DNA of 64,000 nt from Hyphomicrobium sp. 99 (GTDB lineage Bacteria > Pseudomonadota > Alphaproteobacteria > Rhizobiales > Hyphomicrobiaceae). Within the stretch, counting starts at the first letter, position 1, and each line of letters begins with the position of its first letter. Below are positions 1 through 38,645 of this stretch, in pieces. The stretch covers positions 3,359,545 through 3,423,544 of the forward strand of contig NZ_KQ031382.1 in assembly GCF_000384335.2 (NCBI RefSeq), given 5' to 3'. A model generated the notes under the pieces. It was given only the letters and a program-made list of their open reading frames with translations. It did not search any database and was not told the DNA's origin. The position numbers and the translations under genes are program-made.

Positions 1-1010
1 CTCAGGCCACCAACAGCAACGAGCTGCGGTGGGCTAAAATTCAACAGATCGCCGGCAAGCTCAAAATAGGCGCTGGCTTCCTTGAACGCAGCTCCGCTTC
101 TATCCGTGACTTGGACGCCGGCGACATGCGCGCGAACAGAAGCACGAACAGCCATGAAGAAAGGCAGGAGAGCGACACCATCATCTTCATCGGCAGCATC
201 GAAATAACGATTGAACACCCAGTTTGCCTCGGCGCGAAGTCCCCGACCCCATAAGTCCATGAGCAGAAAGGCGAGATCGTAAAGCACGTCGATGGTGGCG
301 AGATCATCATCGAATTCCAGGCAGTCGAAAAGCGTGGGAGAGCCATCAAGCAAGCAGATGTTTCGGAGGTGCAGATCTCCGTGGCAACGGCGCACTTTGC
401 CAGATCTCTCGCGCTCATCCAGTAACCACCCCAACCGATCGAGCATCGCCTTGAGCTCCATTTCAAGGGCGTACGCCTGGTCAGCGCCAAAGATTCCCGC
501 GGCCCTGATCGATTCCGAATTCATATCCAGGACAGCCGTCATGATCTCGCTACCCGATCGCCGATGATCGATTGCTGCATCTCGATGGAAGTCTGCGATC
601 GCGATTGCCGTCTTGGAGAGGAGGGTAGGACCGAGTTCGTTCCGTTCAGCGATTTGGCTGAAGAGATCTCGTTGATCGAAGCGCACCATTTCAACAACGG
701 AATCGACCAATTCTCCGTTGCCGTCGAATGTCAGGCGGCCGCTGGCTTCCCGTGTGATACGTCGCACGGCAACATAAAGGGACGGTGCGGTGCGCCGATT
801 AAGTTCTAGTTCTCGCAGGCATGCAGACAGCCGCAGGCTGGCTGTAGAGAAATCCAAATAGGGGAAGCAAACCGAACGCTTGAGCTTATAGGCGCGCTTA
901 CCACTCAGGATAATGATCGAGATATGCGTGTCATGTCGTTCGGTAACGTCCGATAGGCTCGAGAGGAAAGCAATTGCTTCGCTTTGATCTTGCCTAATCA
1001 TCATCGGCAT
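1..1010 (-). CDS. APH-like kinase / P-loop fusion protein (N-terminal part, runs off left edge)
   Basis: This partial gene reads leftward from ATG at 1010 and is still open at base 1, giving 336 codons. The protein has the aminoglycoside-phosphotransferase-like fold of COG2187: a Gly-Lys-Arg-Ala-Tyr-Lys-Leu-Lys nucleotide-binding segment near residue 35 and the catalytic loop Cys-His-Gly-Asp-Leu-His-Leu-Arg-Asn at about residue 209. A metal-binding-type Leu-Phe-Asp-Cys-Leu-Glu-Phe follows. The last visible residues (LVAVGGLS) are how the P-loop kinase domain usually begins in the bifunctional APH/ATP-binding family, so a Walker A motif probably lies just outside the window. A GGAG sits 6-7 bases before the ATG. 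A paralogue without the P-loop half lies at 35793-36917. The substrate is unknown. Confidence 0.85.
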   Translation of the reverse strand, partial: MPMMIRQDQSEAIAFLSSLSDVTERHDTHISIIILSGKRAYKLKRSVCFPYLDFSTASLRLSACLRELELNRRTAPSLYVAVRRITREASGRLTFDGNGELVDSVVEMVRFDQRDLFSQIAERNELGPTLLSKTAIAIADFHRDAAIDHRRSGSEIMTAVLDMNSESIRAAGIFGADQAYALEMELKAMLDRLGWLLDERERSGKVRRCHGDLHLRNICLLDGSPTLFDCLEFDDDLATIDVLYDLAFLLMDLWGRGLRAEANWVFNRYFDAADEDDGVALLPFFMAVRASVRAHVAGVQVTDRSGAAFKEASAYFELAGDLLNFSPPQLVAVGGL

Positions 1011-1346
1011 CCGCGCTCCGGCAGATCTTGAGGTGGAAGATTATCATTCCTTTCAGGCGGCTGGCCAGACGGCTGGCGATCTCGTTGTTTGGGAGCTTCG
1101 TCAGCGACTTCGGCGAGCACCAAGCGGTCGTATGCAGCGCTTTGCCTTCACTAGGACTCGCAAATCTCGTCTCGTGTGCTTGGCGTGGGCGGCTTCCTCG
1201 CTGGCTTTAGGAATGTTCAAACGCGGGAGATAAAGTATATTTCGCGGGAGCACGTTCCGGCTCCAGCGCTCAACAGGGCTTGACTTGCCTCAAGGCCATC
1301 GTTTGCGAACAGCACTTATTTTATTTTAATTTTGAGGATGACGGCT
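1011..1346. other. Intergenic region between kinase and cytochrome c
   Basis: This divergent spacer of about 335 bases holds no ORF that I can support. Two overlapping rightward frames at 1028-1233 are short and match no family I know. The only clear signal is an FNR/FixK-type palindrome at 1280-1293. An AT-rich stretch (1315-1333) lies just before the cytochrome gene. Confidence 0.6.
1280..1293 (+). promoter_or_regulatory. FNR/FixK-type box upstream of cytochrome c
   Basis: TTGACTTGCCTCAA matches the TTGA-N6-TCAA core bound by FNR/Anr/FixK proteins. The inner bases differ from the optimal TTGAT-N4-ATCAA. It lies 53 bases before the cytochrome c ATG, a distance that suits activation. Regulator binding is inferred from the motif alone. 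Confidence 0.55.
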
Positions 1347-1736
1347 ATGCGAGCGTCGTTGCTATTTGTTCCACTTGTTTTTCTTCCCTTGGTCAGTGCC
1401 GGTGCTGAGGAAGTAGACGCCAATCGCCTCGAGCTTGGCGAAATGCCATACATGACTTATTGCGCCTTATGTCACGGCATGGGCACAGATACGGGCATGT
1501 TTGCCGAAGCGCTGAAAAGGCCAGCTCCGGATCTTACGCTAATAGCCAAGAGAAATGGCGGGATGTTTCCTGAGGGGCGCGTCAAGGCCATTATTCGTGA
1601 CGGCGGGGTAAGCGGACATGGCACAATGCGTCTGCTGGCGTGGGAACGTTATTTCCGGAAGGACACCCCGCCGGAACACGCTGATCAGGTGATCGACGAT
1701 ATCACGTCCTATCTCGAGAAGCATCAAGCGCCCTGA
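1347..1736 (+). CDS. Small periplasmic c-type cytochrome
   Basis: A 129-residue exported monohaem cytochrome c. The N-terminus is a typical signal peptide (hydrophobic residues 4-15, probable cleavage after Ala-Gly-Ala). The mature part has one CALCH haem-binding motif, a conserved Met near Gly-Thr-Met-Arg that could be the distal ligand, and a C-terminal helix. It probably carries electrons in the periplasm, but no oxidase or dehydrogenase partner is adjacent. ATG at 1347 is preferred because GAGG lies about 8 bases upstream. The ATG at 1338 is too close to it and would lengthen the signal peptide. An FNR-like box precedes it, which suits a microaerobic respiratory role. Confidence 0.85.
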   Translation: MRASLLFVPLVFLPLVSAGAEEVDANRLELGEMPYMTYCALCHGMGTDTGMFAEALKRPAPDLTLIAKRNGGMFPEGRVKAIIRDGGVSGHGTMRLLAWERYFRKDTPPEHADQVIDDITSYLEKHQAP

Positions 1737-1973
1737 TCAGGGAAGATACTCGCGAACCATCGGAGTTCTGCCGTTGTGTAGAGCAGTCGTCGCTCTCTAC
1801 CGATTTTCGGCTTCGCAAGGCAAGGCTCGGTCGAAAGTCGCTGCGCAGCATGGCCTGCGAACGTAAATTGGCGAGTTAAAATTTCTGCTTGAGGATTGAC
1901 TCAACGCAAAGCGCTTTGTGACTTGCTGTTCCACGCAACTATTTTGTGGTGAGTTGAGTGGAAGGATACTTCA

Positions 1974-2627
1974 ATGAGCGATATCCAGCTTCGCCAGTTC
2001 GTCATCGACGAGCTTGAATTCGAACCCAGCATCGACGCAACAAATATCGGGGTCGCTGCTGATGACGGCATCGTAACCTTGACCGGCCACGTTCGAAGCT
2101 ATGCCGAGAAGATTGCCGCACTACAGGCTGTACGCCGAGTCAAAGGCGTGCGCGCCGTGGCACAGGAAATCGAGGTTCGCTATCCCGGCGAGCACAAGAC
2201 GGCGGACGAGGAAATTGCGAAGCGCGTCCTCAATGTTTTGAAATGGCACGCAATGATCCCGCACGAAGACGTTAAGGTGACCGTCGAAAAAGGATGGGTA
2301 AACCTCAGCGGCACCGTAGACTGGCACTATCAGAAGAAAGCCGTGGAAGACGCCATCAAGAAATTACTGGGTGTCATCGGCGTTACCAATTCCATATCCG
2401 TCAAGGCGTCGGTTCAGACGGCAGATATCAAGAAGAAGATCGAGGCCGCATTGGCTAGAAGCGCGCAGGTTGAGGCCAACGCCATTCGCATCAACGTCTC
2501 AAACGACAATCGAGTGAGCCTCGAAGGGGTTGTCGACAGTTGGGAAGATCACGACGTGGTCGAGAATGCAGCGTGGTCAGTCCCCGGAGTCCAGTGGGTC
2601 GATGACCGTTTGACTGTCTCGTCGTGA
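1974..2627 (+). CDS. Triple BON-domain protein
   Basis: A 217-residue protein made of three BON domains (about residues 1-70, 75-145 and 148-217). Each shows the pattern of a helix, then Val-Xaa-Leu-Xaa-Gly-Xaa-Val, then a helix and Gly-Val. There is no signal peptide, so it should stay in the cytoplasm, unlike OsmY. BON domains are thought to bind lipids or membranes, and soluble multi-BON proteins are common in stress clusters beside CBS and UspA proteins. The CBS gene starts 38 bases downstream, so the two are probably co-transcribed. A 236-base promoter region precedes it. Confidence 0.88.
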   Translation: MSDIQLRQFVIDELEFEPSIDATNIGVAADDGIVTLTGHVRSYAEKIAALQAVRRVKGVRAVAQEIEVRYPGEHKTADEEIAKRVLNVLKWHAMIPHEDVKVTVEKGWVNLSGTVDWHYQKKAVEDAIKKLLGVIGVTNSISVKASVQTADIKKKIEAALARSAQVEANAIRINVSNDNRVSLEGVVDSWEDHDVVENAAWSVPGVQWVDDRLTVSS

Positions 2628-2665
2628 GTTTAGTCGCAGTAGTCTTAGTATGTCAGGAGGAGGCC

Positions 2666-3085
2666 ATGAAGGTCAGAGATGTAATGCATAAAGGCGCCGA
2701 GTGGGTAAGTCCACAAACCCCCCTTAGCCAAGTAGCGCAGCTGATGAAGGATCTCGATATTGGTGCACTGCCAGTTGGAGAGAACGACCGGCTCGTCGGC
2801 ATGGTGACTGACCGCGATATTACCTGCAGAGCGATTGCCGGCTCCCAAGACGTTTCGAAGATGACCGCCCAGAACGTGATGTCCAAGGGAATTGTCTACT
2901 GCACCGCCGAGGAAGAACTCGAAGACGCGCTGCGGCTCATGGAAACAAAGAAAATTCGCCGTCTACCCGTCATCGACGGCAAAAAGCGCATGGTCGGTAT
3001 GCTCAGCATTGGGGATGTTTCTCACGCGGCGCCTCGTAGTGTCTCGGGAGAAGTCATAACGGCCGTATCTGCGCATCACGCGTGA
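2666..3085 (+). CDS. CBS-pair domain protein
   Basis: A 139-residue protein consisting of two CBS motifs (about residues 5-60 and 70-128). The Met-Val-Thr-Asp-Arg-Asp-Ile turn is typical of adenosyl-nucleotide-sensing CBS pairs. Such proteins bind AMP, ATP or SAM, but the partner is unknown here. The open frame extends to 2624, overlapping the BON gene, but the real start is ATG at 2666, which has an AGGAGGAGG ribosome site (2655-2663). It forms a unit with the upstream BON gene. Confidence 0.9.
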   Translation: MKVRDVMHKGAEWVSPQTPLSQVAQLMKDLDIGALPVGENDRLVGMVTDRDITCRAIAGSQDVSKMTAQNVMSKGIVYCTAEEELEDALRLMETKKIRRLPVIDGKKRMVGMLSIGDVSHAAPRSVSGEVITAVSAHHA

Positions 3086-6188: not shown

Positions 6189-8600
6189 TCAATCCGTTCG
6201 TGGCGCTTCGCTACGACTGGCCAATTTCGATAGCGATCCTTCTGCAGCGGCGATCTCTTGCTTAACGCGTATGAAGCTGTCCGGATTTACAGAAATAGAA
6301 TCGATCCCGTGCTCGATAAGGAAATGTGCAAATTCTGGATGGTCGCTCGGCGCCTGCCCGCAAATCCCGGTGTGTGTCCCGGTCTTTTGTGCTGCTGCAA
6401 GCAGATCTGAGATCATCAAGGTGACCGCCTCGTGCCGCTCGTCGAACAAGCCGCTAAGTCTTTCACTATCGCGGTCAATGCCGAGCACGAGTTGAGTGAG
6501 ATCATTTGAGCCAATCGAAAATCCATCGAAGCGTTCTGCGAACCGCTCTGCCAACCGTATGTTCGAGGGCAGCTCAGCCATGACGTAAACTTCGAGTCCT
6601 TCTTTGCCCCGCATTAGTCCATGACTTGCCATCTCGGAAAGGACGCGATCCGCTTCCTCAGGCGTGCGGCAGAATGGGATCATCATTATGATATTGGAAA
6701 GCCCGATTTCCTCGCGCGCCCGGCGGATGGCCCGGCACTCCAATGCGAAACCCTCACGATAGTCTGGATGGTAGTAACGGCTCGCTCCGCGCCAGCCCAG
6801 CATTGGATTTTCCTCTTTGGGTTCGAAACCAGCTCCCCCAATGAGTTTGGCATATTCGTTGGTCTTAAAGTCACTCATCCGAACGACAACTGGGTTGGGA
6901 TAATGCGCGGCGGCGATGAGTGCGATGCCGCGAGCAAGAGTATCGACGAAATAGTCCTGCTTCGAGTCGAAACCGTGAGTGAGACATTCAATTTGGTTGC
7001 GAACCTTTTCGTCCTTGATCTCGTCGAAGCGCACCAAGGCCATGGGATGAACCTTGATGTAGTTGCTGATGATGAATTCCATGCGCGCCAAGCCCACACC
7101 ATCGGTCGGCAGACGCCACCAGCGGAACGCTGCCGATGGATTGGCAAGATTGATCATTGCCTTGGCATGCGTCTTCGGAATCTGTGCCGTGTCGATATCA
7201 GTCACATCAAAATCTATGATGCCCTCATATACATGGCCCACTTCGCCCTCGGCGCATGAAACGGTGATCTCCTGATCGTTTTGAAGAGTCTCGGTCGCAT
7301 TCCCGGTTCCGACGATCGCTGGAAGCCCGAGTTCGCGGCTGACGATCGCTGCATGGCTCGTGCGACCACCATGGTCTGTGACAATCGCGGCTGCCCGCTT
7401 CATGATCGGCACCCAATCCGGGTCGGTGATGCCCGTGACGAGGACCGCGCCGTCTTGAAAATTCTGGATATCATCGGCGCTGGCCAACTTGCAGACCTTG
7501 CCGGCGCCGATAGCGTCGCCGACCGCGAGTCCGGAAATGATAAGCGACCCTTTTTTCCGCAGTCTATACGTCCTGAGCTGACTGGCTTCACGCCGCGACT
7601 GAACTGTTTCCGGTCGCGCCTGGACGAAGAACAGTTCGCCTGTTTGTCCGTCCTTTGCCCATTCGATGTCCATCGCTTGACCGTAATGACGCTCTATGGC
7701 AACTCCCCATCGGGCAAGCGTTAGGATCTCATCATCACTAAGGATGAATCTGCGTCGCTCATCGTTGCTGGTGTCAACCAGGGATGTTGAGCCCTTCTCC
7801 GCGTATATCAACTTGCGAACCTTGGCACCCAGTGTCTTCTCGATGATCGGTTTCCGCGATGGTTTCTCAAGGAGCGGCTTGAAGACACGATACTCGTCGG
7901 GTTCGACCATTCCTTGAACCACCGTCTCCCCTAGACCCCACGCTCCGTTGATCAAAACGGAGCGTGGAAATCCAGTTTCCGTGTCGATCGAAAACATCAC
8001 GCCTGAGCAAGCCAAGTCGGAGCGAACCATCCGCTCGACGCCAACCGAAAGTGCAATTTCAAGATTATCGATCTTATTGTTTTTGCGATAACTGATCGCC
8101 CGATCGGTGAACATAGAGGCGAAGCACTTCTTGCAAGCCTCTAGCACCTCATCCTCACCTTGTATGTTCAGGAAGGTCTCAAGCTGCCCCGCGAAACTCG
8201 CCTCAGGAAGATCTTCCGCCGTCGCACTCGAGCGCACAGCAACACCGACTGGTCCGCCGTCGCCCATTTGTCGATAAGCCCCTCGCACCGCTTGCGCCAG
8301 GGGCTCTGGAAGTTTCCCATTCAGAATAAGCTTGCGTATCGCACCACCCACTTGAGATAAATTACTCAAGTCATCATTCAGCTTTTCGAGCTCGGTGGCA
8401 ATTGGCTGACGGAGTTCGTTCGCCTCCAAGAAGAACCGATAGGCCGCTGCTGTGGTAGCGAACCCTTGTGGGACGCGAATGCCGGCATCCTTGAGCCGGC
8501 TCATCATTTCCCCAAGCGAGGCGTTCTTACCGCCGACTTTATTAATATCCGTGCGACCAATTTCCGAAAGCTGAAGGATAAGCTCTTTGTGATCGTCCAT
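6189..8600 (-). CDS. ppsA: Phosphoenolpyruvate synthase
   Basis: An 803-residue enzyme of full family length that converts pyruvate and ATP to PEP, AMP and phosphate in gluconeogenesis. The N-terminal ATP-grasp part starts at Lys-Val-Gly-Gly-Lys-Asn-Ala-Ser-Leu-Gly-Glu-Met. The phospho-histidine domain contains Thr-Asp-His-Gly-Gly-Arg-Thr-Ser-His-Ala at about residue 415. The C-terminal PEP/pyruvate barrel ends with the catalytic Gly-Ile-Cys-Gly-Gln-Ala and Ser-Ile-Ser-Val-Asn-Pro-Asp. It is the last gene of a leftward series of carbon-metabolism genes, 171 bases after gpmA, with acsA and pdh upstream. In that setting it would recycle pyruvate to PEP, or run in reverse when AMP is high. Confidence 0.97.
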   Translation of the reverse strand: MDDHKELILQLSEIGRTDINKVGGKNASLGEMMSRLKDAGIRVPQGFATTAAAYRFFLEANELRQPIATELEKLNDDLSNLSQVGGAIRKLILNGKLPEPLAQAVRGAYRQMGDGGPVGVAVRSSATAEDLPEASFAGQLETFLNIQGEDEVLEACKKCFASMFTDRAISYRKNNKIDNLEIALSVGVERMVRSDLACSGVMFSIDTETGFPRSVLINGAWGLGETVVQGMVEPDEYRVFKPLLEKPSRKPIIEKTLGAKVRKLIYAEKGSTSLVDTSNDERRRFILSDDEILTLARWGVAIERHYGQAMDIEWAKDGQTGELFFVQARPETVQSRREASQLRTYRLRKKGSLIISGLAVGDAIGAGKVCKLASADDIQNFQDGAVLVTGITDPDWVPIMKRAAAIVTDHGGRTSHAAIVSRELGLPAIVGTGNATETLQNDQEITVSCAEGEVGHVYEGIIDFDVTDIDTAQIPKTHAKAMINLANPSAAFRWWRLPTDGVGLARMEFIISNYIKVHPMALVRFDEIKDEKVRNQIECLTHGFDSKQDYFVDTLARGIALIAAAHYPNPVVVRMSDFKTNEYAKLIGGAGFEPKEENPMLGWRGASRYYHPDYREGFALECRAIRRAREEIGLSNIIMMIPFCRTPEEADRVLSEMASHGLMRGKEGLEVYVMAELPSNIRLAERFAERFDGFSIGSNDLTQLVLGIDRDSERLSGLFDERHEAVTLMISDLLAAAQKTGTHTGICGQAPSDHPEFAHFLIEHGIDSISVNPDSFIRVKQEIAAAEGSLSKLASRSEAPRTD

Positions 8601-8771
8601 GCAGCATACAACCTTGACTCGTTTGCGGGCCGGTTTTTGCAGTGCCGGTATTTGTATTTGCCGACACGACTAGCGGGCATGTTGGGCCTAGCCCTTAGTG
8701 GCTCCTGCCCATTGTGCTTGGCGATGACCGGCGACGTTTCAGAAACTGGAACGTTTCAGCACTGATCTTCG

Positions 8772-9503: not shown

Positions 9504-9656
9504 CGCGTACCTTCGTCTTCGAAAGCTTGGTCTTTTGGTCGCCGGCGTTTTTTTCTATGTGAGGTCGAGGTGGCTATCGATGTCCAGGCGTTGGCAAACC
9601 CATGCACTAACAATTTCATCGCGGGAGGCCATGTCAGGCGATGCCGATATTTTGAC

Positions 9657-10640: not shown

Positions 10641-10650
10641 ATCGTCACTT

Positions 10651-28824: not shown

Positions 28825-28858
28825 AAGCCTAGCGTGCTCAACACGAATTTCATTTCAC

Positions 28859-28892
28859 GCATCAAAAGTGCTGTGTAATCAGCCTTTGATGC
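28859..28892. promoter_or_regulatory. Perfect 8-base inverted repeat in a divergent promoter region
   Basis: GCATCAAA (28859-28866) is repeated inverted as TTTGATGC (28885-28892), with 18 bases between. It lies just upstream of the leftward MBL gene and about 160 bases before the rightward hydrolase gene. The half-sites resemble FNR half-sites (TTGAT), but the spacing is wrong for one dimer. Confidence 0.35.
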
Positions 28893-29051
28893 AAATTAGT
28901 TCGCAGGTGATTTCCGTTCGACTGCTAACATTAACGTGCTGGCTCATAATGACCTTAAGTGGCACGCATCATTCGGCGGTTTGATCCTCCACAATGTCGC
29001 CCCTCCGATACCAATTACGTGGTAACAATTAGTGTGCGGAGTTGGTCGAAT

Positions 29052-29696: not shown

Positions 29697-29700
29697 GCGC

Positions 29701-30369
29701 GTGGGAACGATAATCTTTCAGAACCGCCAGTATGCGGGCCAACTCCTGGCCGCAGAGGTTGCTCGACGTGGGTACACGGATCCCGTTGTGCTTGGTTTGC
29801 CGCGCGGCGGCGTTCCCGTCGCTGCAGAGGTGGCAGCAAAACTGAAGGCGCCTCTCGACATAATTCTCGTTCGCAAAATTGGAGCACCTATGCAGCCGGA
29901 GCTTGCTATCGGTGCAGTGGTTGATGGCGGCGCACCTGAGTTTGTTCGCAACGAAACGCTCATCCGCGCGCTTGGGCTGACTGACGACGAGTTTCGCGAA
30001 GAAGCGGAACGTCAGCTCGCCATTATCGAGGCGCGACGCAAGTTGTGGGTCGAGGGACGTCCCCGTATTCCCCTGAAGGGCAAGACCGCGATCATAGTCG
30101 ATGATGGCATCGCAACAGGTGCAACGGTGCTGGCATCCTTGCATGCATTGAAGAGGCAAGGTCCGAAGCGGACGGTTGTGGCGGTACCGGTCGCATCATC
30201 GGAGGCCGTCGAAGCTCTGACGGCAGAAGCGGACGATATTATCTGTCTCGAAGCCCCCTGGGACTTTGGCGCAGTTGGTTCATTTTACGCTGATTTTTCG
30301 GAAACAAGTGATGCTGAAGTGTCTCGGCTGCTCGATATCGCTCGCGTCGCGGAAGGCACCCGCACATGA
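29701..30369 (+). CDS. Phosphoribosyltransferase family protein
   Basis: A 222-residue type I phosphoribosyltransferase-fold protein (COG1926 group). Leu-Pro-Arg-Gly-Gly-Val-Pro-Val at about residue 33 and the PRPP-binding loop Val-Asp-Asp-Gly-Ile-Ala-Thr-Gly-Ala-Thr at about 137 are clear. The base acceptor cannot be deduced. The gene starts with GTG 29701 and is probably translated with the alpha/beta hydrolase gene in front. With two PRPP synthetases and the NMP phosphorylase it adds to the strong PRPP-linked theme of this region. Confidence 0.92.
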   Translation: MGTIIFQNRQYAGQLLAAEVARRGYTDPVVLGLPRGGVPVAAEVAAKLKAPLDIILVRKIGAPMQPELAIGAVVDGGAPEFVRNETLIRALGLTDDEFREEAERQLAIIEARRKLWVEGRPRIPLKGKTAIIVDDGIATGATVLASLHALKRQGPKRTVVAVPVASSEAVEALTAEADDIICLEAPWDFGAVGSFYADFSETSDAEVSRLLDIARVAEGTRT

Positions 30370-30591
30370 TGCCGCGGCAAGATAAATCGGTATGAATGTT
30401 CTCGTGGGGTCGCCGCGCTAACGCTCATCGTTTGAGCGGTCGTCGAGTTCATCGTTCGACAGGATGTCGGAAACGAGGGCCGCCTCATGACCGCGCTCAC
30501 AAGCCATGACGCCCTCGCGAGCGGCAATCGTCATGTCGAGGAACGACCAGATCTGGCCTAGTCGCCGAAAACTGGCAGGAAGCGAGATTGT
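30370..30591. other. Gap between phosphoribosyltransferase and uspA
   Basis: This 222-base convergent gap has no supported gene. A leftward frame ending at 30419 could encode 37 residues from ATG (MTIAAREGVMACERG...), and the frame is open further upstream without a usual start. It reads protein-like and may be a remnant or a very small gene, but I cannot support it. Confidence 0.3.
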
Positions 30592-31029
30592 TCAGCGACA
30601 GATCAAAACCGACGTCGTGCTCTGCGTTACAACGCGATGAGCTTGGCTGCCGAGCACGAGGCGCATCAGGCCCCTGTGGCCATGCGATGCCATCACGATC
30701 AAATCGCAGCCGTGTGTGCTTGCAGTTTCTACGATGGCCTCGGCGGGATACTGGTCTTTGACATGAACGGTCTGGCAAGCAATCTGTAATTTCATGCCAG
30801 CGGCTGACGCGTCGTCCAGGATTTTTCTGGCGTTCGCCGCTGCAGCCCGCTCGTATTCTTCGACCGGATAGACTATCGCGACTTCGGCCGGAGCATCCAT
30901 TCCCCAAGGTTCCGTCACGGTTAAGATTGTCACTTTCGCATTGACCGCCTTCGCCAGGGCGAACCCCTGTTCGACAGCCTTCCCGGCGAGCTCCGAACCG
31001 TCTGTCGCAATAAGCAAATGTTTGTACAT
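30592..31029 (-). CDS. Universal stress protein UspA family
   Basis: A 145-residue single-domain UspA protein. It begins Lys-His-Leu-Leu-Ile-Ala-Thr-Asp-Gly-Ser, has Val-Asp-Ala-type ATP site features, and ends with the nucleotide-binding signature Gly-Ser-His-Gly-His-Arg-Gly-Leu followed by Gly-Ser-Gln-Ala-His-Arg-Val (G-2X-G-9X-G(S/T)-like). It is likely an ATP-binding stress protein of the cytoplasm. Its own promoter region holds the best-placed FNR/FixK box of the island, 118 bases before the start. Confidence 0.95.
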   Translation of the reverse strand: MYKHLLIATDGSELAGKAVEQGFALAKAVNAKVTILTVTEPWGMDAPAEVAIVYPVEEYERAAAANARKILDDASAAGMKLQIACQTVHVKDQYPAEAIVETASTHGCDLIVMASHGHRGLMRLVLGSQAHRVVTQSTTSVLICR

Positions 31030-31146
31030 GTTTTCAATTCACATAGAGATAAGCTGGCGAACGTGCGTTTGAGCGCTGCGCCACTGCCAAGTACCCGGGA
31101 GAAAAATAATCCCTTTCCTTGATCCCATGATGATAGATCAACGACC

Positions 31147-31160
31147 TTGATCGGCGTCAA
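31147..31160 (-). promoter_or_regulatory. FNR/FixK box upstream of uspA
   Basis: TTGATCGGCGTCAA fits TTGA-N6-TCAA exactly and TTGAT-N4-ATCAA with a single change. It stands in the divergent region between uspA (minus) and a membrane-protein gene (plus). It is one of the two strongest boxes in the window. Confidence 0.65.
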
Positions 31161-31324
31161 GAGATCGTCGTTCATGTTAATTGATAACAAACACGCAAGA
31201 GATATTCGCGGCCGGCGATTTTACCCGGCACGACAGCGGTCGCGGCGATTGCAGCAGTCTTTTGGGCATCTTCACTATGGCTCAACGGTGAAACGGGCGA
31301 CCACCAATACGTGCGAGGCAAGCT

Positions 31325-31861
31325 TTGGCAAGGGAGAATGCGGTTATCGAAATTCGAATTCGAGAGCTTGCGCAGCTCTTCAATTCACTCGATCCTTCAC
31401 CATTCCACGAACGTGACCTCGATCGCGATGCTGAAGAATACATCGTCGGCTGGGCGCGTGAACTTCCTTCGGACGCATCGCTTCGCATTATCGTGCATCT
31501 TCCGGAAGAAGAAGCTCGCAAAGCACAGGAGCGAGGGCTTAGCGCTGCGCTGGCCAACTACTTCGCGGAACGCGCCTCGATGCAACAGCGTGAACTCAAC
31601 GAACTTTTCCGGATAGGTCGCCGCTACTTGCTGATCGGCTCCATAGTGCTCGTCGTTTGCCTCCTTGGCAGCCAGCTCGCGCGCATGCATTTGGGTACTG
31701 GACCGATGGCGAGCATTATCGCCGAGAGCCTGATTCTGGTTGGCTGGGTCGCAAATTGGAAGCCGATTGAGACGTTTCTGTATGACTGGTGGCCATTGAA
31801 ACGGCGGCGTGACCTCTACCAGCGATTGGCGCAAGCGTCAGTAGAAATCAAGTCATTCTAG
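31325..31861 (+). CDS. Membrane protein of unknown function
   Basis: A 178-residue protein with an N-terminal soluble part (about 1-90, acidic, with Ser-Leu-Asp-Pro-Ser-Pro-Phe-His-Glu-Arg-Asp-Leu-Asp), then two hydrophobic helices (about 100-118 and 125-142), then a basic C-terminus (Lys-Arg-Arg-Arg). I do not recognise a named family, although I have the impression that such proteins occur near stress clusters. There is no ATG in frame before the conserved-looking part. TTG 31325 is chosen because GAGG lies six bases upstream. It converges with the HPF gene, ending 7 bases from it. Confidence 0.7.
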   Translation: MARENAVIEIRIRELAQLFNSLDPSPFHERDLDRDAEEYIVGWARELPSDASLRIIVHLPEEEARKAQERGLSAALANYFAERASMQQRELNELFRIGRRYLLIGSIVLVVCLLGSQLARMHLGTGPMASIIAESLILVGWVANWKPIETFLYDWWPLKRRRDLYQRLAQASVEIKSF

Positions 31862-31868
31862 AGGATAC

Positions 31869-32426
31869 CTACCGCGAGCGAACCGGCTGGACGAACGTTG
31901 CCTGGGGCCCTTTGTCCCCCATCGTTTCAGCGAACTGCACTTCCTGTCCAACTTCCAGATCATCGAACTTATCGCCAACGACACTATTGCGATGAAAGTA
32001 GATTTCGCGACCGTCTGCAGAACTGATAAACCCGTGATCACGCGCAGACTCGAGTGAACTCACAGTCCCGTGGGGAGGCTGCTCATGTGTTTTGATCTGT
32101 CCCTGCCTCCGTCGCACGAGATCCTGTAGCTGCCGGCGCGCAGCAGCAAAGGCATCCGAGATCGTAACATTAACGTCCTCATGTCGTCCCGTTGCAGCCG
32201 GATCCCGGCTTATCGCAATATCGGCGGCGCCGGGGATCGTGAAATGGAGATGGACACTATAGGTGTCCCCCTTATGGTGCCGATGTTGCGGCCGCCCTAT
32301 TACGATGCGTGCGGATGTGATGCGGTCGTAGAACTGCTCGAGCTTTTTGGCTTCTTCGCGTACGCGCTCATCGATGTAGTCAACGGGCTTGATATGTTCG
32401 AAAACAACCTGGATAGGAACCTGCAT
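31869..32426 (-). CDS. Ribosome hibernation factor with C-terminal cold-shock domain
   Basis: A 185-residue fusion. Residues 1-105 are the HPF/RaiA fold (Ile-Asp-Glu-Arg-Val-Arg-Glu, His-Leu-His-Phe-Thr-Ile-Pro, Asp-Val-Asn-Val-Thr-Ile-Ser-Asp-Ala-Phe). Residues about 115-182 are a cold-shock domain with RNP-like Asp-His-Gly-Phe-Ile and Glu-Ile-Tyr-Phe-His-Arg-Asn. The usual long HPF has a different, dimerising tail, so this one may bind RNA while the N-domain occupies the decoding site of idle ribosomes. ATG 32426 is taken rather than GTG 32429. It fits a starvation or hypoxia island. Confidence 0.9.
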   Translation of the reverse strand: MQVPIQVVFEHIKPVDYIDERVREEAKKLEQFYDRITSARIVIGRPQHRHHKGDTYSVHLHFTIPGAADIAISRDPAATGRHEDVNVTISDAFAAARRQLQDLVRRRQGQIKTHEQPPHGTVSSLESARDHGFISSADGREIYFHRNSVVGDKFDDLEVGQEVQFAETMGDKGPQATFVQPVRSR

Positions 32427-32713
32427 CACAGTAAAATCTCATATCTTAAGTTGCTGAAACCTGTCTCTTCCTCGCGCCTGGATCAGAGCTAACATTGCCT
32501 CACGACGACATCGAGGTTCCCGCCGCTGGCCCCCGGATCTTTCAAGCATGCGAAACGCACACATCATAACATCGTTCCAAGTCCCGTTCCGCCTGCAGTG
32601 CATTGACCGATAATAAAGACCGAGAATAAATTTCATCATTGTCAGCAACCACGAACCTGCGCTCTGCGGACACTGATTAATCTTTGGGTTCTATATGTCG
32701 GCTCATTCTTGCG

Positions 32714-33832
32714 TCACCATTTGAGCTTCAAGGTGTTATCCGTTTCAATAAGCACTTCGGTACCGAAGACCTTGCCTTCCCGGTTCAAAATCCTTGCGAG
32801 ATGTTCCACATCTGTCCTCGCGGCTCGATTGAGCCGCATGTTCCGGATCTGCAGTGGAGTCATTTCTAGCCCAGCAAGTGAGCCGTCCGTCGTGCGGATG
32901 GCCGGGAAATACATGAGCGCCAGATCGCTTCTGTACTGTTCCCAGCCTTCGATACCTTCGTAGTCGTTGATCAGATCACCGCAGCCATAAAGAATGAGCT
33001 TACCCCGATAAACTTCAATTCCCTTGGCGTGATGTGAAGAATGACCATGGATTACATCTACGCAGCCGGCGTCTATGAGCCGGTACGCAAAGAGCCTGTG
33101 CTGCTCCGGTACGGGATAGCCCCAGTTTCCTCCCCAGTGAATTGAGACAATAACTGGGTGCTTCTTCCCGACCGCTGTGTGGATGCGCTCGATGATTTCT
33201 TCTGCTGCATCGCCCGACAGTGCGGGCACGAGATTAATACCCGGCCTCTCGGAGCCAGCTGCCCATTCGTGAGGAACTCCGGAATCGACGCAGGCGAGGG
33301 AAAAAACAAATAGCCGCGAGTTACCGCGATCCACTATTGCTGGTGCTGTCGCGCGAGCGGCGTCACAACCTGCGCCCGTGAACTGCACACCTACTCGATT
33401 TAGGGTGTGAAGCGTTTCGAGCAAACCGGAGGGACCCCAATCGAGGATATGATTGTTTGCAAGCACGCAACAGTCGATCCCCGCCGTGCGGATGACGCCG
33501 ACGTTCGCTGGACTCATTTTGTAGTTGATGCCCTTCGGCTCCGCGCTGGCACTGTTTGTAATCGCAGTTTCAAGATTGATTATTCGGGCGTCGAGCCGAC
33601 GGCGGTTCAGCTCATCAAGGGCATCGCCCCAGACGTACTCAAAGGAAACCGGCTGCGGAATGGGCCCATTGCGTCGCTCCGCTAGTAGCACGTAATCTTT
33701 TGCCGACCTCACGTAACTTTCGTAAATATGCGGGTCCGCGGGATGCGGTAATATCTGGTCTATGCCTCGTCCCGTCATGACATCGCCAGCGAGAAAAAGC
33801 GTAACCGCTTCAGGAGATCGGGTAGGCGTCAT
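32714..33832 (-). CDS. CapA family protein (PGA_cap metallophosphatase-like)
   Basis: A 372-residue protein of the CapA/PgsA family. It has Leu-Ala-Gly-Asp-Val-Met-Thr-Gly-Arg-Gly at residue 13, Asn-Leu-Glu-Thr-Ala, Leu-Ala-Asn-Asn-His-Ile-Leu-Asp-Trp-Gly, Ile-His-Trp-Gly, and Gly-His-Ser-Ser-His-His, the set of metal-ligand motifs of the calcineurin-like CapA fold. Poly-gamma-glutamate capsule genes are absent here, and no membrane anchor is visible, so a phosphatase or other role is as likely as capsule synthesis. It follows cysQ by 6 bases on the same strand. Confidence 0.9.
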   Translation of the reverse strand: MTPTRSPEAVTLFLAGDVMTGRGIDQILPHPADPHIYESYVRSAKDYVLLAERRNGPIPQPVSFEYVWGDALDELNRRRLDARIINLETAITNSASAEPKGINYKMSPANVGVIRTAGIDCCVLANNHILDWGPSGLLETLHTLNRVGVQFTGAGCDAARATAPAIVDRGNSRLFVFSLACVDSGVPHEWAAGSERPGINLVPALSGDAAEEIIERIHTAVGKKHPVIVSIHWGGNWGYPVPEQHRLFAYRLIDAGCVDVIHGHSSHHAKGIEVYRGKLILYGCGDLINDYEGIEGWEQYRSDLALMYFPAIRTTDGSLAGLEMTPLQIRNMRLNRAARTDVEHLARILNREGKVFGTEVLIETDNTLKLKW

Positions 33833-33838
33833 TCCTGT

Positions 33839-34666
33839 TCACCCTGATGCTGTGATTGCAAGAATGACTCTGCTCATCGCAGGATTACCCAGAGCAATGA
33901 ACGCTGGCACGATGAATTCATTATCGGCGCGGCCGTAAACGAGCGGGTTGCCGTCTGGTGCGATCACCACACCTCCTGCTGCCGCGACGATCGCGTGTCC
34001 GGCGGCGATATCCCACTCGTGGGTCGGCGCGAGTCGCGGGTATATGTCCACGCTTCCCTCCGCGATGCGGCAAAACTTGATCGATGAGCCGCACGATGTC
34101 TCATTGTCGACCTGCAACAGGGAAAGCATGGCTGCGGTTCTTGAATCGAAGTGGGAGCGGCTGACCGCAGCTACAAGGCCATCCTCGGGCAGCCGCCGGC
34201 GCGTATTGAGAGGTATTCTCTGCGTCGCTTCACTGACGTTTGCGCCTGGCGAAAGACAGAATCGTTCCGCACCTCGTGTGGCGACCCCGCGCCACACGAG
34301 CGCGCGCGCAGGCGCAATGATGACGCCTACGAGTGGGGCGCCGTCTACCAGCAGCGCAATGTTGACGGTAAACTCATTTCGGGATGCGAGAAACTCTCGT
34401 GTGCCGTCGAGCGGATCGACAAGGGCAAAACACGAGGTAAGAGCCGAAGAAGCTCCTTTGGAAAGGGCGCTTTCCTCGGATACAATTGGTACATTTGGAA
34501 GAAGACGAGACAGCTCCTCGATGATGATGGCATTCGCTGCCTCATCTGCTGCGGTAACGGGCGAGCCATCGCTTTTAAAGCGTCTCGAGGCTGCTGCTGG
34601 ATCAAAACGCAAGATCGCCTCCGCTGCATGAGATGCAATGGTGGTAACTTCGTCAACGCAATGCAT
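33839..34666 (-). CDS. cysQ: 3'(2'),5'-bisphosphate nucleotidase CysQ / inositol-monophosphatase family
   Basis: A 275-residue Mg-dependent phosphatase. It has Glu-Glu-Ser-Ala near residue 74, the metal motif Val-Asp-Pro-Leu-Asp-Gly-Thr-Arg-Glu-Phe that fits CysQ (pAp hydrolysis to AMP), and Trp-Asp-Ile-Ala-Ala-Gly-His-Ala. In a stress island, a role in removing pAp from RNA decay or sulfate assimilation would make sense. The frame is open to 34771. ATG 34666 fits the family length best, but its ribosome site is poor and a GTG 12 codons upstream is possible. It precedes capA. Confidence 0.9.
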   Translation of the reverse strand: MHCVDEVTTIASHAAEAILRFDPAAASRRFKSDGSPVTAADEAANAIIIEELSRLLPNVPIVSEESALSKGASSALTSCFALVDPLDGTREFLASRNEFTVNIALLVDGAPLVGVIIAPARALVWRGVATRGAERFCLSPGANVSEATQRIPLNTRRRLPEDGLVAAVSRSHFDSRTAAMLSLLQVDNETSCGSSIKFCRIAEGSVDIYPRLAPTHEWDIAAGHAIVAAAGGVVIAPDGNPLVYGRADNEFIVPAFIALGNPAMSRVILAITASG

Positions 34667-34801
34667 TTCCGCTAATTTTGAGATGTCCAGATTGCTTGCC
34701 ACATCACAGATCCAGCGTTTGCTGTCATCTATGATAAGAGAAAACGTTGACGACGCATTGATATTCCGCAACGCCGACGATCCAGGCCGCGCTTATTGAA
34801 A

Positions 34802-34820: not shown

Positions 34821-34843
34821 GTCAAAGCCGAGAGGGCATGCTT

Positions 34844-35875
34844 ATGACTGCCGATTTCCGACTCTGGAGTCCGTGCGACGCTCATCCGCCGATGAATTCG
34901 GATCAGACTCGATTGTTCGCCCTCCAGGCCTCAGCTGACCTCGGGAAGGCGGTTGCGGCGGCTTTAGAGTTGCCCCTTTGTGCGCATGAAGAGCGCGAGT
35001 TTGAAGATGGGGAACACAAGGCGCGTCCACTCGTTCCCGTTTCGGGTATGGACGTCTATGTCATCCAGAGCCTTCACAGTGGGCCGACGGCTAGCGCCAA
35101 TGATAAACTTTGTCGGCTATTGTTTTTTGTGGGAGCGCTGAAAGATGCCGGCGCCGCCAGCGTAACCGTTGTGGCGCCCTATCTATGCTATGCGCGAAAA
35201 GATCGTCGGACCAAGCCGAACGACCCGGTAACCACACGCTACGTGGCGGAGATACTCGAGGCTGTCGGCGTGGATGCGATCGTTACTCTCGACGTTCACA
35301 ACCCCATGGCTTTTGAAAACGCGTTTCGCTGCCGGACTGTCACGCTTACGGCCGCGCCCCTGTTCGCTGATTATGCGAGGAAGTTCAAGGGTGAGAAACT
35401 TTGCATCGTTTCTCCCGACACTGGCGGAGCGAAGCGAGCCGAACTTCTGCGTGAGACGTTGGAGGTGGCTTTCGGTCAGCCCATTGGCAAAGCCTTTGCC
35501 GATAAGCACCGGAGTGCTGGCGTCGTCTCAGGCGATCTTTTTGTCGGCGATGTCGAGGGAGCGACCGCTCTTATCGTTGATGATCTTATTAGTTCGGGAG
35601 GTACACTCCTGCGGGCGGCGCGCGCTGCGCGCAAAGCCGGCGCGCGTCGCGTACTGGCGCTGGTAACACACGGACTGTTCATGGCTGGCGCTTCCGAGGT
35701 ACTTGCAGAACCCGCAATCGAGTTCGTGGCCGTTACAGATACAATACCGCCATTTCGACTCGATCTCCGGCTAGCTGCGCAAAAAGTGCACGTCATTTCT
35801 TCAGCCTCCCTGCTTGCCGAGGCGGTAGCCTGTTTGGCAAATGGGCAACCGCTAACGCACCTTGTCGTTTTTTGA
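34844..35875 (+). CDS. prs: Ribose-phosphate pyrophosphokinase (second copy)
   Basis: A 343-residue PRPP synthetase-like protein. It contains Tyr-Ala-Arg-Lys-Asp-Arg-Arg (ATP site), Thr-Leu-Asp-Val-His-Asn (metal His), Ala-Asp-Lys-His-Arg (catalytic loop with Lys and Arg), and Val-Asp-Asp-Leu-Ile-Ser-Ser-Gly-Gly-Thr (PRPP loop). It diverges clearly from the copy at 20433 (Lys instead of Gln in the ATP site, different loop) and has an N-terminal extension of about 16 residues if ATG 34844 is right; ATG 34892 is an alternative start. It is divergent from cysQ and overlaps the end of the kinase gene by 83 bases tail to tail. Confidence 0.9.
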   Translation: MTADFRLWSPCDAHPPMNSDQTRLFALQASADLGKAVAAALELPLCAHEEREFEDGEHKARPLVPVSGMDVYVIQSLHSGPTASANDKLCRLLFFVGALKDAGAASVTVVAPYLCYARKDRRTKPNDPVTTRYVAEILEAVGVDAIVTLDVHNPMAFENAFRCRTVTLTAAPLFADYARKFKGEKLCIVSPDTGGAKRAELLRETLEVAFGQPIGKAFADKHRSAGVVSGDLFVGDVEGATALIVDDLISSGGTLLRAARAARKAGARRVLALVTHGLFMAGASEVLAEPAIEFVAVTDTIPPFRLDLRLAAQKVHVISSASLLAEAVACLANGQPLTHLVVF

Positions 35876-36917
35876 TGAAGCGCTGCAGGTGGGTCGCGTC
35901 GGCCGCCGCGATGTCCAGATATGCTTTCGCGACTCGCGGCCATTTCTCCGGAGTTCGCGGATTAGGCTCCAATAAGTGAGCGATCGCCAACCTTGCCCGC
36001 AGCATTGCCCGGTGACAGCGATAGAAGCGATATAGCGCTTCCGGCGGATCATCGTGCAATCCTTGCGCGATTTTGCGGTGGCAGTAGTCGCCTATCCATG
36101 CGGCGCCAAGACGTTCGCACTCGACACTGAGATACGCCAATTCGTCGAACGGATCGACGGCTCTCAGTCGTGCGTTGAACTCCAGGCAGTCGATAATTCT
36201 GATGCCATCGGTGAGCCATACGTGCTCCGGACGCAAATCTCCATGCCCGTCAAGAATGCGGCGTTTGCGAACGCGCTCCTCCAGCGTCCGAGCGCAATGG
36301 GTGAGAAATGCGCGCTGAGCATGATCTACCCTGCGTACGGTGGCCGAAGAGAGCCCAAGACGCGCATTGAGGAGGATGCGAGAGTTTTCGTTGAGGCTTC
36401 GCTGCCATTCGCGTATTTGCACGGCGGGAGGGATAAAGACGCGTTGAGTGCGGCGATAGAACCCGACGAGGGTCGACACGAGCCGATCGAGCTGCTGTGT
36501 TTCAACTCTTGAGTTGGTGAGTGCGTGTTCAAGCGTCAACTGCTCATCGAGACGCCTCATAACCACGAGCCAATCGACGATGGTGCCGGTGCCGCCGATT
36601 GAGAGACGATCGCGCGAAATAACCAGGGGCTCCACGTTTAGGTAAATGTCGCGAGCGAGCCGCCTGTTCAAACGGAGTTCGGCTCGACAAGCAGCTTCGC
36701 GTTGCGCGAGCGTCGAGAAATCGAGATAGGGAAAGCGAACGGGCTTCTTTAATTTGTAGGCTTTGTCGCCGGCTAGGAAGACCCATGACATGTGAGTCTC
36801 GCGAACGGAAACGACCTCGCCAGCGTTGAGATGATAAGTGGATGCTCGAGTGAGAAACGAGACTTTTTCCGCAAACGGAAGGCGCTCCTCGACCCGTCTT
36901 GGCGATAATGGTTCCAC
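35793..36917 (-). CDS. APH-like kinase (COG2187-type, without P-loop domain)
   Basis: A 374-residue protein similar in plan to the first gene of the window. It has Ala-Tyr-Lys-Leu-Lys-Lys-Pro (about residue 55), the catalytic Gly-His-Gly-Asp-Leu-Arg-Pro-Glu-His (about 223), and Ile-Ile-Asp-Cys-Leu-Glu-Phe-Asn. The ATPase half found in fused family members is missing, and the stop falls in a Lys-rich tail. The last 80 bases overlap the end of the second prs gene on the other strand. The start is GTG 36917 with a poor ribosome site. A perfect FNR/FixK palindrome lies 112 bases upstream. The substrate is unknown. Confidence 0.88.
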   Translation of the reverse strand: MEPLSPRRVEERLPFAEKVSFLTRASTYHLNAGEVVSVRETHMSWVFLAGDKAYKLKKPVRFPYLDFSTLAQREAACRAELRLNRRLARDIYLNVEPLVISRDRLSIGGTGTIVDWLVVMRRLDEQLTLEHALTNSRVETQQLDRLVSTLVGFYRRTQRVFIPPAVQIREWQRSLNENSRILLNARLGLSSATVRRVDHAQRAFLTHCARTLEERVRKRRILDGHGDLRPEHVWLTDGIRIIDCLEFNARLRAVDPFDELAYLSVECERLGAAWIGDYCHRKIAQGLHDDPPEALYRFYRCHRAMLRARLAIAHLLEPNPRTPEKWPRVAKAYLDIAAADATHLQRFIKKRQGALAVAHLPNRLPPRQAGRLKK

Positions 36918-36979
36918 CTTATTCCATCTCGAGACTGTTGCTCACCTTGGACCGGGAGCCGCTATAGACTGGCTGGATT

Positions 36980-37055
36980 TCAACCCTTCCAGATAAATAA
37001 ATTGCAGCCAAATGGGTCGCCGAATATCTTGATGCACATCAACGCTACGAGCGAG
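36980..37055 (-). pseudogene. Possible C-terminal tail of a glyoxalase/VOC gene
   Basis: The last 24 codons of a leftward frame end in Phe-Gly-Asp-Pro-Phe-Gly-Cys-Asn-Leu-Phe-Ile-Trp-Lys-Gly. This resembles the closing strand of VOC-family proteins (Asp-Pro-Phe-Gly). The front is not recognisable. It overlaps the FNR palindrome, so one of the two readings may be coincidental. Weak evidence. Confidence 0.25.
37029..37042. promoter_or_regulatory. Perfect FNR/FixK palindrome
   Basis: TTGATGCACATCAA is an exact match to the FNR consensus TTGAT-N4-ATCAA. It lies 112 bases before the kinase start on the minus strand and 185 bases before the EEP gene on the plus strand. It is the best match in the window. 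Confidence 0.7.
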
Positions 37056-37226
37056 CCGCTCTGCGCGATTTTGCTCTGTAAGAGCGGCCAGATTTCCAAA
37101 TATGATTTAATTTGTGTGCTTTTCTGTCTTCGTAATCCCATCGTCCCATTTAGGTCACGGGTGTAGGGTGGCGTCGGATTCGACGTCCAGCTAGCATGCA
37201 ATAAACGCGAAGGCGGGCCTAAAGCC

Positions 37227-38210
37227 ATGCGGATTGCGACATTCAACTTGGAGAGCTTGGATCTGCCTCCCAAAGCGCATGTTCCGCTGGAAGTTCGTGC
37301 GGAGATATTAAGACCGGCGCTTGCCCGGCTTGAGGCTGATGTGCTCTGCTTGCAGGAGGTCAATGGCCAACCAGTGCGTGGACAGGCGGAGCGCGCGCTT
37401 GTTGCGCTCGACCAGTTGTTGGCCGGAACACCGTACGCTGAGTACCACCGCGTCTCGACTACGGGTCCAGATGGGCACGGCGTCGCCGATGTCCATAATC
37501 TGGTAACGCTCTCCCGCTTGCCTCTACTTTCGACACGCGAGGTGCGCCATAGCCTCGTGCCGCCCCTGCAGCATTCTGTGCAGACGGCCGAGCCCGCCGA
37601 CACCGACTATAAGCCTCTGCGCTTTGATCGCCCCATACTCGTCACCGATCTTGACGCTGGCAACGGACGGCGCCTCACCGTTGTCAATCTGCATCTTCGT
37701 GCGCCCCTGGCTGCCACCATCGCCGGTCAGAAACTCGCACCTTTCATTTGGAAAACTGTATCGGCGTGGGCCGAAGGCTACTTTCTGGCCGCCGTTCGAC
37801 GAGCGGCACAGGCCCTCGAACTGCGCCTTCTCATAGATCAAATGCTCTCCGAGGATCCGCACCTATTGATAGCAGTCGCAGGTGACTTTAACGCCGAGGA
37901 TCATGAAACGCCGCTCAAGATCGCGATGGGCGCGGAGGAAGACACCGGCAACGGGCAGCTTAGCGGGCAGAGCCTCATCGTGCTCGACCGCGCGATTGCC
38001 GCCGACCGGCGATGGAGCGTATTGCACCATGGCCGCCAGCAAATGCTGGACCACATCCTCGCTAGCCATACGCTCTATGGCTACTTCCGATCGATTGAAG
38101 TCCACAACGAGTCGCTCGGCGACGAGGCGGTAGCCTATTCTAAGATCAGCAATCCGCCGGGGTCCTATCACGCCGCTGTCGTAGCGCAATTTGCGCTCGG
38201 CTTCGGGTGA
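37227..38210 (+). CDS. Endonuclease/exonuclease/phosphatase family protein
   Basis: A 327-residue EEP-fold protein. It begins Ile-Ala-Thr-Phe-Asn-Leu-Glu-Ser, has Val-Leu-Cys-Leu-Gln-Glu-Val-Asn (metal Glu), Val-Val-Asn-Leu-His-Leu-Arg-Ala, Ala-Gly-Asp-Phe-Asn-Ala-Glu-Asp, and a late Asp-His-Ile-Leu-Ala-Ser and Ser-Tyr-His-Ala-Ala (catalytic His). No signal peptide is seen. The substrate could be nucleic acid, phospholipid or inositol phosphate. It is the last intact gene before the integrase fragment and the tRNA. Confidence 0.92.
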   Translation: MRIATFNLESLDLPPKAHVPLEVRAEILRPALARLEADVLCLQEVNGQPVRGQAERALVALDQLLAGTPYAEYHRVSTTGPDGHGVADVHNLVTLSRLPLLSTREVRHSLVPPLQHSVQTAEPADTDYKPLRFDRPILVTDLDAGNGRRLTVVNLHLRAPLAATIAGQKLAPFIWKTVSAWAEGYFLAAVRRAAQALELRLLIDQMLSEDPHLLIAVAGDFNAEDHETPLKIAMGAEEDTGNGQLSGQSLIVLDRAIAADRRWSVLHHGRQQMLDHILASHTLYGYFRSIEVHNESLGDEAVAYSKISNPPGSYHAAVVAQFALGFG

Positions 38211-38234
38211 AAGTCTGCCTCTGAAGCGGCGTCA

Positions 38235-38420
38235 TCAACGGGCCTGGGCGCTCGATCGTAGATAACAAGTAACAATACGAAAGCAGTCTCGGCGTATTTC
38301 CCAGGAGCGCGACCCGCTCGGCTTCACCCTAAGATAGAGCCCGGCGCCATCCGGGTAGAGGCCCGGCTTCTTGATATTCGAGGCAGTGATTGCGGTGAGG
38401 CGATGAGTTGTTTTCGGCAT
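38235..38420 (-). pseudogene. Truncated tyrosine integrase (arm-binding N-terminus)
   Basis: From ATG 38420 the leftward frame encodes Leu-Thr-Ala-Ile-Thr-Ala-Ser-Asn-Ile-Lys-Lys-Pro-Gly, then Asp-Gly-Ala-Gly-Leu-Tyr-Leu-Arg-Val, then Gly-Ser-Arg-Ser-Trp. This is the DUF4102 arm-type DNA-binding start of P4-like integrases. After about 44 residues the similarity ends and the frame stops. The catalytic domain is missing. It lies 136 bases from the 3' end of tRNA-Ser and points away from it, the usual place of an island integrase, so this is the scar of an integrated element. Confidence 0.75.
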
Positions 38421-38555
38421 CCCCGGGTCCACAAACGCGAGGCCGATGGTAGGCGATTTGCGCCGACGTCCATAGTCGTCAGATGGGGCTTTGCCCTGAT
38501 TTTATTACGGCAATTTTCTCAGACCGCCGTCAATAGACACCGACAGACAGGGGGT

Positions 38556-38645
38556 TGGCGGAGAGGGTGGGATTCGAACCCACGAGACCCTTACGAGCCT
38601 ACACGCGTTCCAGGCGAGCGCCTTCAACCACTCGGCCACCTCTCC
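38556..38645 (-). tRNA. tRNA-Ser (GGA)
   Basis: A 90-base tRNA on the minus strand: acceptor GGAGAGG pairing with CCTCTCC, anticodon loop CTGGAAC (anticodon GGA), a long class II variable arm, TTCGAAT in the T loop, and an encoded CCA end. It is intact. It likely served as the attachment site for the element to the left. Confidence 0.97.

Follow-up and report, generated by a model that had tools for sequence, protein, structure and literature searches.

What the block of stress and metabolic genes beside the tRNA-Ser(GGA) gene of Hyphomicrobium sp. 99 represents, and how it came to lie there, is the question raised by the window analysed here, a stretch of 64,000 nucleotides (bases 3359545-3423544 of contig C3; genome 4.1 Mb) in which positions are counted from the first base, with negative numbers to its left. 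An initial annotation had described a 38-kb "energy-stress" island anchored at this tRNA, horizontally acquired or mobile, which had lost its integrase and become fixed. The present analysis makes it likely that the region is a horizontally acquired island of ~42-43 kb at the tRNA-Ser(GGA) 3' end, now immobile, and holding a low-oxygen regulon that is plugged into the FixK/FNR system of the host. The acquisition at tRNA-Ser is well supported; the element that binds the cargo together, predicted FNR/FixK-type boxes ahead of many of its transcription units, is the new part of this analysis. A literature search returned no title on this island or on comparable gene sets as islands.

The tRNA-Ser(GGA) gene is intact (38556-38645, minus strand), as had been annotated, and the island is bounded on the right by the tRNA 3' end (38556), since the homology of the right flank with close congeners stops at 38555/38556. 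In four close congeners (G016, G014, G001, and G020) homology does not continue past this end and reappears only beyond the left limit of the window. The right flank matches G016 at 88% and G014 at 87% up to the tRNA 3' end, past which 1.3 kb (G016) or 1.7 kb (G014) of other DNA precedes the return of colinearity at -4856 and -4846, respectively, which then continues through the fetched stretch at 76-87%. G001 and G020 carry different inserts of ~9 and 13 kb before matches resume. The inserted region therefore covers positions 1-38555 of the window and extends left of base 1 to ~-4856 or, alternatively, to -3396; the left edge is uncertain between these positions because G001 and G020 also have the gene of an MFS transporter (-4535 to -3396), in a different order. 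As colinearity resumes only at ~-4856, an island of 38 kb that stops at base 1 is ruled out, and the size originally proposed has to be enlarged accordingly.

The synteny comparison recommended in the initial annotation thus places the block at a site where congeners carry different DNA. G003, which is 94% identical to G001 on the right flank, gave no alignment that passed the length filters over the 38 kb beyond the tRNA, whether it was compared with G001 or with this genome. In all 153 pairwise comparisons among 18 genomes, the alignment reaches the tRNA 3' end, with overruns of 0-33 bp (median 0), but only 79 of these alignments exceed 300 bp, so that many hardly extend beyond the tRNA itself. 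The argument is therefore carried by the six pairs with at least 88% identity over more than 300 bp, which overrun the tRNA by 0, 1, 1, 2, 5, and 33 bp.

Approximately 0.12 kb beyond the tRNA-Ser 3' end lies the remnant of a P4-type tyrosine integrase (38235-38432, minus strand) that consists of the N-terminal arm domain only and points away from the tRNA, in agreement with the broken P4-like integrase first noticed there. It matches only residues 14-48 of PF13356 (Arm-DNA-bind_3) with 25.8 bits, just below the 27-bit cut-off, and the reduction to this first domain renders the island immobile by this route. At least one congener, G007, possesses a complete three-domain integrase of 409 amino acids ~170 bp beyond this tRNA, likewise in the same orientation; for the other congener flanks, in which only long frames in the first 5 kb were listed, one doubtful 28-residue match to the remnant was obtained, in G003 (E 0.14). 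Like tRNA-anchored islands with P4-type integrases, the region combines insertion at a tRNA 3' end, an adjoining integrase remnant, atypical composition, and absence from relatives; unlike them, it has an integrase cut to the first domain and a distal repeat was not found. A P4-type integrase probably put the island, or an earlier occupant, at the tRNA-Ser site. Elsewhere in this genome, a second, similar broken integrase start lies beside tRNA-Tyr(GTA) (9642-9770 of stretch L046; ~2611700 of contig C3); the corresponding integrase frames of G016 (L048) and G001 (L049) are open for ~400 codons. Moreover, tRNA-Thr(TGT) (L046, 16747-16823, compared with L049), just past which the homology with G001 stops, may be another insertion site.

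The distribution of the cargo was assessed in 21 congeners, one genome per species, using three cargo proteins (the phosphorylase, the PGA_cap protein, and ppsA) and the DNA of the pdh/acs genes. None of the three proteins has a full-length relative in the 21 congeners: the phosphorylase (gene at 21359) gave weak partial matches in four (E 5e-5 to 1.4e-4), the PGA_cap protein one weak match (E 2e-6), and ppsA partial matches in all 21, the best of which, in G012, consists of two pieces (residues 21-348 and 356-454) at 37%, while a similar partial paralogue of ppsA exists within this genome itself. The pdh/acs DNA found short matches in 17 of the 21, the longest being 329 bp at 66%. Of 165 phosphorylase loci in named genomes, the best 80 belong to Bradyrhizobium, Pseudolabrys, Rhodopseudomonas, and further records, none of them named Hyphomicrobium, at 74-80%, and metagenome proteins reach 91%. 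That the block is ancestral to Hyphomicrobium and was lost in the other species is consequently highly improbable, given also its atypical dinucleotides; it gains some room from the breadth of the search, which took in a single genome per species and only three proteins and one DNA block. The initial annotation had specified that the block would be core genome if every close relative carried these genes at this site and composition were uniform. This is ruled out, as the block is missing at the tRNA in the four congeners, the three cargo genes have no full-length relatives in the 21, and the composition is atypical.

Base composition distinguishes the island modestly. Its G+C content is 56.9%, against 60.9% in the right flank, 58.8% in the left flank, and 59.5 +/- 1.6% in 20 control stretches of 20 kb; the 20-kb halves of the island have 57.1%, and two of the 20 controls are lower. 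The lower G+C content that had been judged by eye is thus real, but it is modest and not uniform. G+C tiles of 2 kb differ (P = 1.2e-5), in line with an atypical composition, but G+C by itself is too weak as evidence for an island. Codon adaptation, the other check suggested, was addressed as G+C by codon position only. The dinucleotide distance is 45 and 61 for the two halves, 12-57 for the controls, and 22 for the right flank, so that the halves exceed 19 and all 20 of the 20 controls, respectively, and the island composition is atypical. The pdh/acs genes (11906-16834) differ from the rest of the island with a G+C content of 61-64%, and the island may therefore be composite. A history of several insertions at one site, in which the pdh/acs block and the left end arrived separately, is a possibility to be taken seriously, albeit the lesser one; it would accommodate the pdh/acs composition, the MFS gene shared with G001 and G020 in another order, and the rarity of other island genes at the loci of the phosphorylase operon. 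The acs promoter nevertheless has a box like the others, and the proteins scanned included no recognisable second integrase.

These predicted boxes suggest that the acquired genes form one regulon. An exact box was defined as the palindrome TTGA-N6-TCAA, and sites were scored with a matrix based on 180 exact sites in 87 outside loci, this genome being excluded, at a threshold of 9.7 (the 95th percentile of the controls) and relative to gene starts that are first-in-frame calls rather than curated ones. Nine distinct sites, all given on the plus strand, were found in island promoters. Three are exact palindromes, all between called genes: TTGACTTGCCTCAA ahead of the gene at 1332 (1280-1293, score 17.0), TTGATCGGCGTCAA ahead of usp (31147-31160, score 17.7), and TTGATGCACATCAA between the divergent genes starting at 36917 and 37227 (37029-37042, score 19.8). 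The others precede the first BON gene (1896-1909, score 10.4), the acyl ligase fusion (23868-23881, score 11.8), and the second prs (34758-34771, score 11.1), or lie between the divergent acs and second BON genes (16861-16874, score 12.1), 162 bp before the called ppsA start, where the site overlaps the end of the phosphoglycerate mutase gene (8762-8775, score 12.4), and at the divergent promoter of the MBL and alpha/beta hydrolase genes (28981-28994, score 11.4). The last of these falls 22 bp inside the longest hydrolase frame, the true start of which is probably further in, because Pfam matches start at residues 49-62 for most families.

The nine sites occur in 6,166 promoter bases of the island, compared with 13 in 69,493 promoter bases of the 20 control stretches, corresponding to 1.15 expected (P = 3.5e-6). 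None of 400 column-permuted palindromic matrices reached nine sites, the largest count being three. Counted by gene leader, 15 of 27 in the island are above threshold versus 14 of 264 in the controls, and the 17 leaders of the right flank show no box excess; the number of distinct sites is the fairer count, because divergent genes share boxes. Across the genome, exact boxes number 81, against 31 for the reversed pattern.

A candidate cognate regulator is encoded by the host. The genome contains nine matches to the CRP-type helix-turn-helix domain (PF13545), seven of them over the cut-off, and one such protein, encoded at C3:1190869, combines cNMP_binding and Crp domains with the motif ETVSR, an FNR/FixK recognition motif. 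Its gene adjoins those of a Usp, a response regulator, and a PAS kinase, and within ~13 kb there are PhaC, CBS-BON, MlaE, cytochrome c, alcohol dehydrogenase, and PIMT-type genes together with four exact boxes. On stretch L225 (1997-15517) this neighbourhood appears as a resident host stress cluster with PhaC, CBS-BON, MlaE, cytochrome c, Usp, and the FixK-like regulator.

The association of such genes with such boxes recurs elsewhere. Nine plasmid stretches, each chosen for carrying relatives of island genes, contain 12 (L178), 9, 6, 5, 11, 5, and 9 (L205-L210), 0 (L179), and 2 (L180) exact boxes; hence seven of the nine hold five to twelve where no more than one is expected, the expectation of 0.1-1.0 per stretch being derived from first-order simulations and not from the general box density of each plasmid. 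Examples are the stretches on plasmids of Bradyrhizobium (12 versus 0.4 expected), Bosea (11 versus 0.3), Agrobacterium (9 versus 1.0), and Sinorhizobium (9 versus 0.6). In the three stretches with gene tables, 28 of 31 boxes are intergenic and at most 250 bp from a start. The stretches of Agrobacterium tumefaciens FPH-AT4, Bosea sp. F3-2, and Bradyrhizobium septentrionale resemble the island in their dense FNR/FixK-type boxes, and between them share BON, CBS, Usp, ppsA, glucokinase, MBL, prs, Hsp20, and cytochrome c with it; unlike the island, they are plasmid-borne, follow another order, and include GroEL, MgtA, RbbA, or alcohol dehydrogenase genes, which were not recognised in the island. 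Likewise, the 80 genome loci around the phosphorylase contain 123 TTGA-N6-TCAA palindromes, compared with 0-15 for eight other palindromes.

The closest functional parallel is the FixK2 regulon of Bradyrhizobium diazoefficiens, for which gene correspondences rest on name and family and not on protein-by-protein comparison. This regulon shares with the island the phosphorylase-prs-MBL operon, ppsA, glucokinase, hexose kinase, PIMT, Usp, CBS, and Hsp20 types as well as the box TTGA/C-N6-T/GCAA, some of these types being FixK2-dependent and others listed only as induced by microoxia (PMC9104804, PMC6515984). Table 2 of PMC9104804 shows lower expression in a fixK2 deletion mutant for ppsA, a usp gene, and two members of the operon bll3117-bll3116-bll3115, namely bll3117 and bll3115; boxes are listed for bll3117, ppsA, and the usp gene, so that the Bradyrhizobium operon has a listed box, unlike its phosphorylase counterpart in the island. 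Table 2 of PMC6515984 lists as raised under microoxia the bll3117 operon together with ppsA, glucokinase, a hexose kinase, PIMT, and CBS proteins. The targets of FixK2 in B. diazoefficiens further include fixNOQP and other genes for symbiosis and respiration (PMC9104804, PMC6515984), whereas the island set forms a block at a tRNA in Hyphomicrobium in which no fixNOQP or nitrogen-fixation gene was recognised.

Several observations weigh against an acquired, oxygen-controlled island. When two other tRNAs were compared as a control between this genome and G001, the alignment crosses tRNA-Tyr but stops 2 bp past tRNA-Thr, so that an alignment ending at a tRNA is in itself nothing unusual. The remnant integrase may stem from a different insertion event, and no other mobility gene was recognised among the island proteins scanned. 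The repeat of the tRNA 3' end that had been suggested as a left boundary did not appear as an exact 14-mer in the island or in the 80 kb left of the window; inexact repeats, matching at 15-16 of 20 positions, number 57 and are scattered over the stretch, with one near the left edge. Regarding the boxes, the island has two further high-scoring sites outside promoters (two in 37,245 bases, no excess over the 50 in 330,507 control bases), the three exact palindromes are weak evidence alone (~0.86 expected from the 81 in the genome), the most conserved operon, that of the phosphorylase, is not preceded by a good box in the island, and the hsp20 leader scores just 6.4. Among the plasmid stretches, that of Azospirillum has no box in spite of a phosphorylase of the same family, and that of Methylocystis, with ppsA, has two. 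In B. diazoefficiens, PIMT and one CBS protein are marked as direct FixK2 targets, but the operon, ppsA, glucokinase, and hexose kinase are unmarked in the rows covered of the table in PMC6515984.

Part of this evidence would also fit an island that was transferred with a mixed set of genes for stress and metabolism and whose boxes are leftovers from donors, idle in the present host. Besides the unboxed phosphorylase operon and the weak enrichment of exact palindromes over the genome rate, six of the nine boxes deviate from the exact palindrome. Such an origin of the boxes is unlikely, considering that all nine sites have been kept at promoter positions and that the FixK-like regulator of the host has a box-bearing cluster of its own.

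The oxygen-controlled island remains the favoured reading. The shared theme of the cargo, initially labelled energy stress, stands as a theme, but it is best explained by oxygen control and better described as a low-oxygen (FNR/FixK-type) regulon. With the block absent at the same place in relatives and boxes of the low-oxygen type ahead of many of its genes, the region therefore resembles a transferred kit for surviving lack of oxygen, one that may benefit its host. Under falling oxygen, the FixK-like protein of the host would bind the boxes and switch on the island genes together with the resident cluster. Judged from domain content, the induced functions could comprise ribosome hibernation by the HPF/cold-shock fusion, protein repair and stress protection (PIMT, Usp, BON, and Hsp20), recycling of RNA and nucleotides (beta-CASP, phosphorylase, and prs), and metabolism of sugar, pyruvate, and acetate.

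A broader proposal, on which the balance is about even, is that low-oxygen survival regulons move between bacteria as promoter-marked packages, on plasmids or at tRNA sites, and work on arrival since the FixK/FNR protein of the recipient reads the boxes, the present island being one such package that was fixed in a methylotroph. The island offers a testable case of a whole stress regulon transferred as a unit including its control sites. If true, tolerance of oxygen lack could spread among soil and water bacteria without transfer of the regulator, and such cargo could be sought at tRNA-Ser(GGA) across Hyphomicrobium.

The stress genes named in the initial annotation were recovered by domain, including two BON proteins, CBS, Usp, HPF-type, ppsA, two prs-like, beta-CASP/MBL, PGA_cap, and lipid fusion proteins. 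Left of the window lies the Hsp20 gene (-1590 to -1063), and a frame spanning base 1 (-513 to 1010) resembles an annotated AAA-family ATPase of a Bradyrhizobium plasmid. The product of the gene at 1332-1736, previously called cytochrome c, matches nothing in Pfam or NCBIfam; the name is plausible because its translation has a CALCH (CXXCH) motif behind a hydrophobic start. It is followed by the BON-domain (PF04972) and CBS-domain (PF00571) proteins (1974-3085, plus strand). On the minus strand, ppsA, a 2,3-bisphosphoglycerate-dependent phosphoglycerate mutase, a PfkB-type hexose kinase, and a glucokinase occupy 6189-11625, and pyruvate dehydrogenase-type E2, E1-beta, and E1-alpha with an acetate-CoA ligase occupy 11906-16834. 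The second BON protein and the protein-L-isoaspartate methyltransferase (PIMT) are encoded on the plus strand (17059-18687).

The three-gene operon at 18742-22894 (minus strand) encodes a beta-CASP MBL hydrolase, a phosphoribosyl pyrophosphate synthetase-like protein, and the phosphorylase, a member of the AMP/thymidine-phosphorylase family that passed the TIGR02645 cut-off (705 versus 434.6 bits) and failed that of the AMP phosphorylase model TIGR03327 (496 versus 535). The operon is conserved in 83 fetched loci, 80 picked by the phosphorylase and three by plasmid hits, with the phosphorylase in 82, prs in 70, and beta-CASP in 78; other island genes are seldom near it. A fusion of acyl carrier protein, fatty acyl-AMP ligase, and acyltransferase follows (23946-26804, plus strand); it is covered to at least 80% in nine plasmid records, and on the Methylobacterium nodulans plasmid it is preceded, at distances of ~80 and 150 bp, by two exact FNR/FixK-type boxes. 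Genes at 27949-34771 encode an MBL hydrolase, an alpha/beta hydrolase, a phosphoribosyltransferase, Usp, the HPF-type/cold-shock fusion, PGA_cap, and a CysQ-type phosphatase; the fusion, a protein of 186 amino acids (31869-32429), joins a ribosome-hibernation-type domain to a cold-shock domain. The second prs, an uncharacterised protein of 374 amino acids, and an endonuclease/exonuclease/phosphatase-family protein complete the cargo (34838-38210). In the right flank, the lysyl-tRNA synthetase (gene at 42593) shows 90% identity to its counterpart in Hyphomicrobium sp. MC1. Finally, a GmrSD-type restriction protein with both domains (44283-46058) is encoded in this flank between the lysyl-tRNA synthetase and dihydroorotate dehydrogenase genes.

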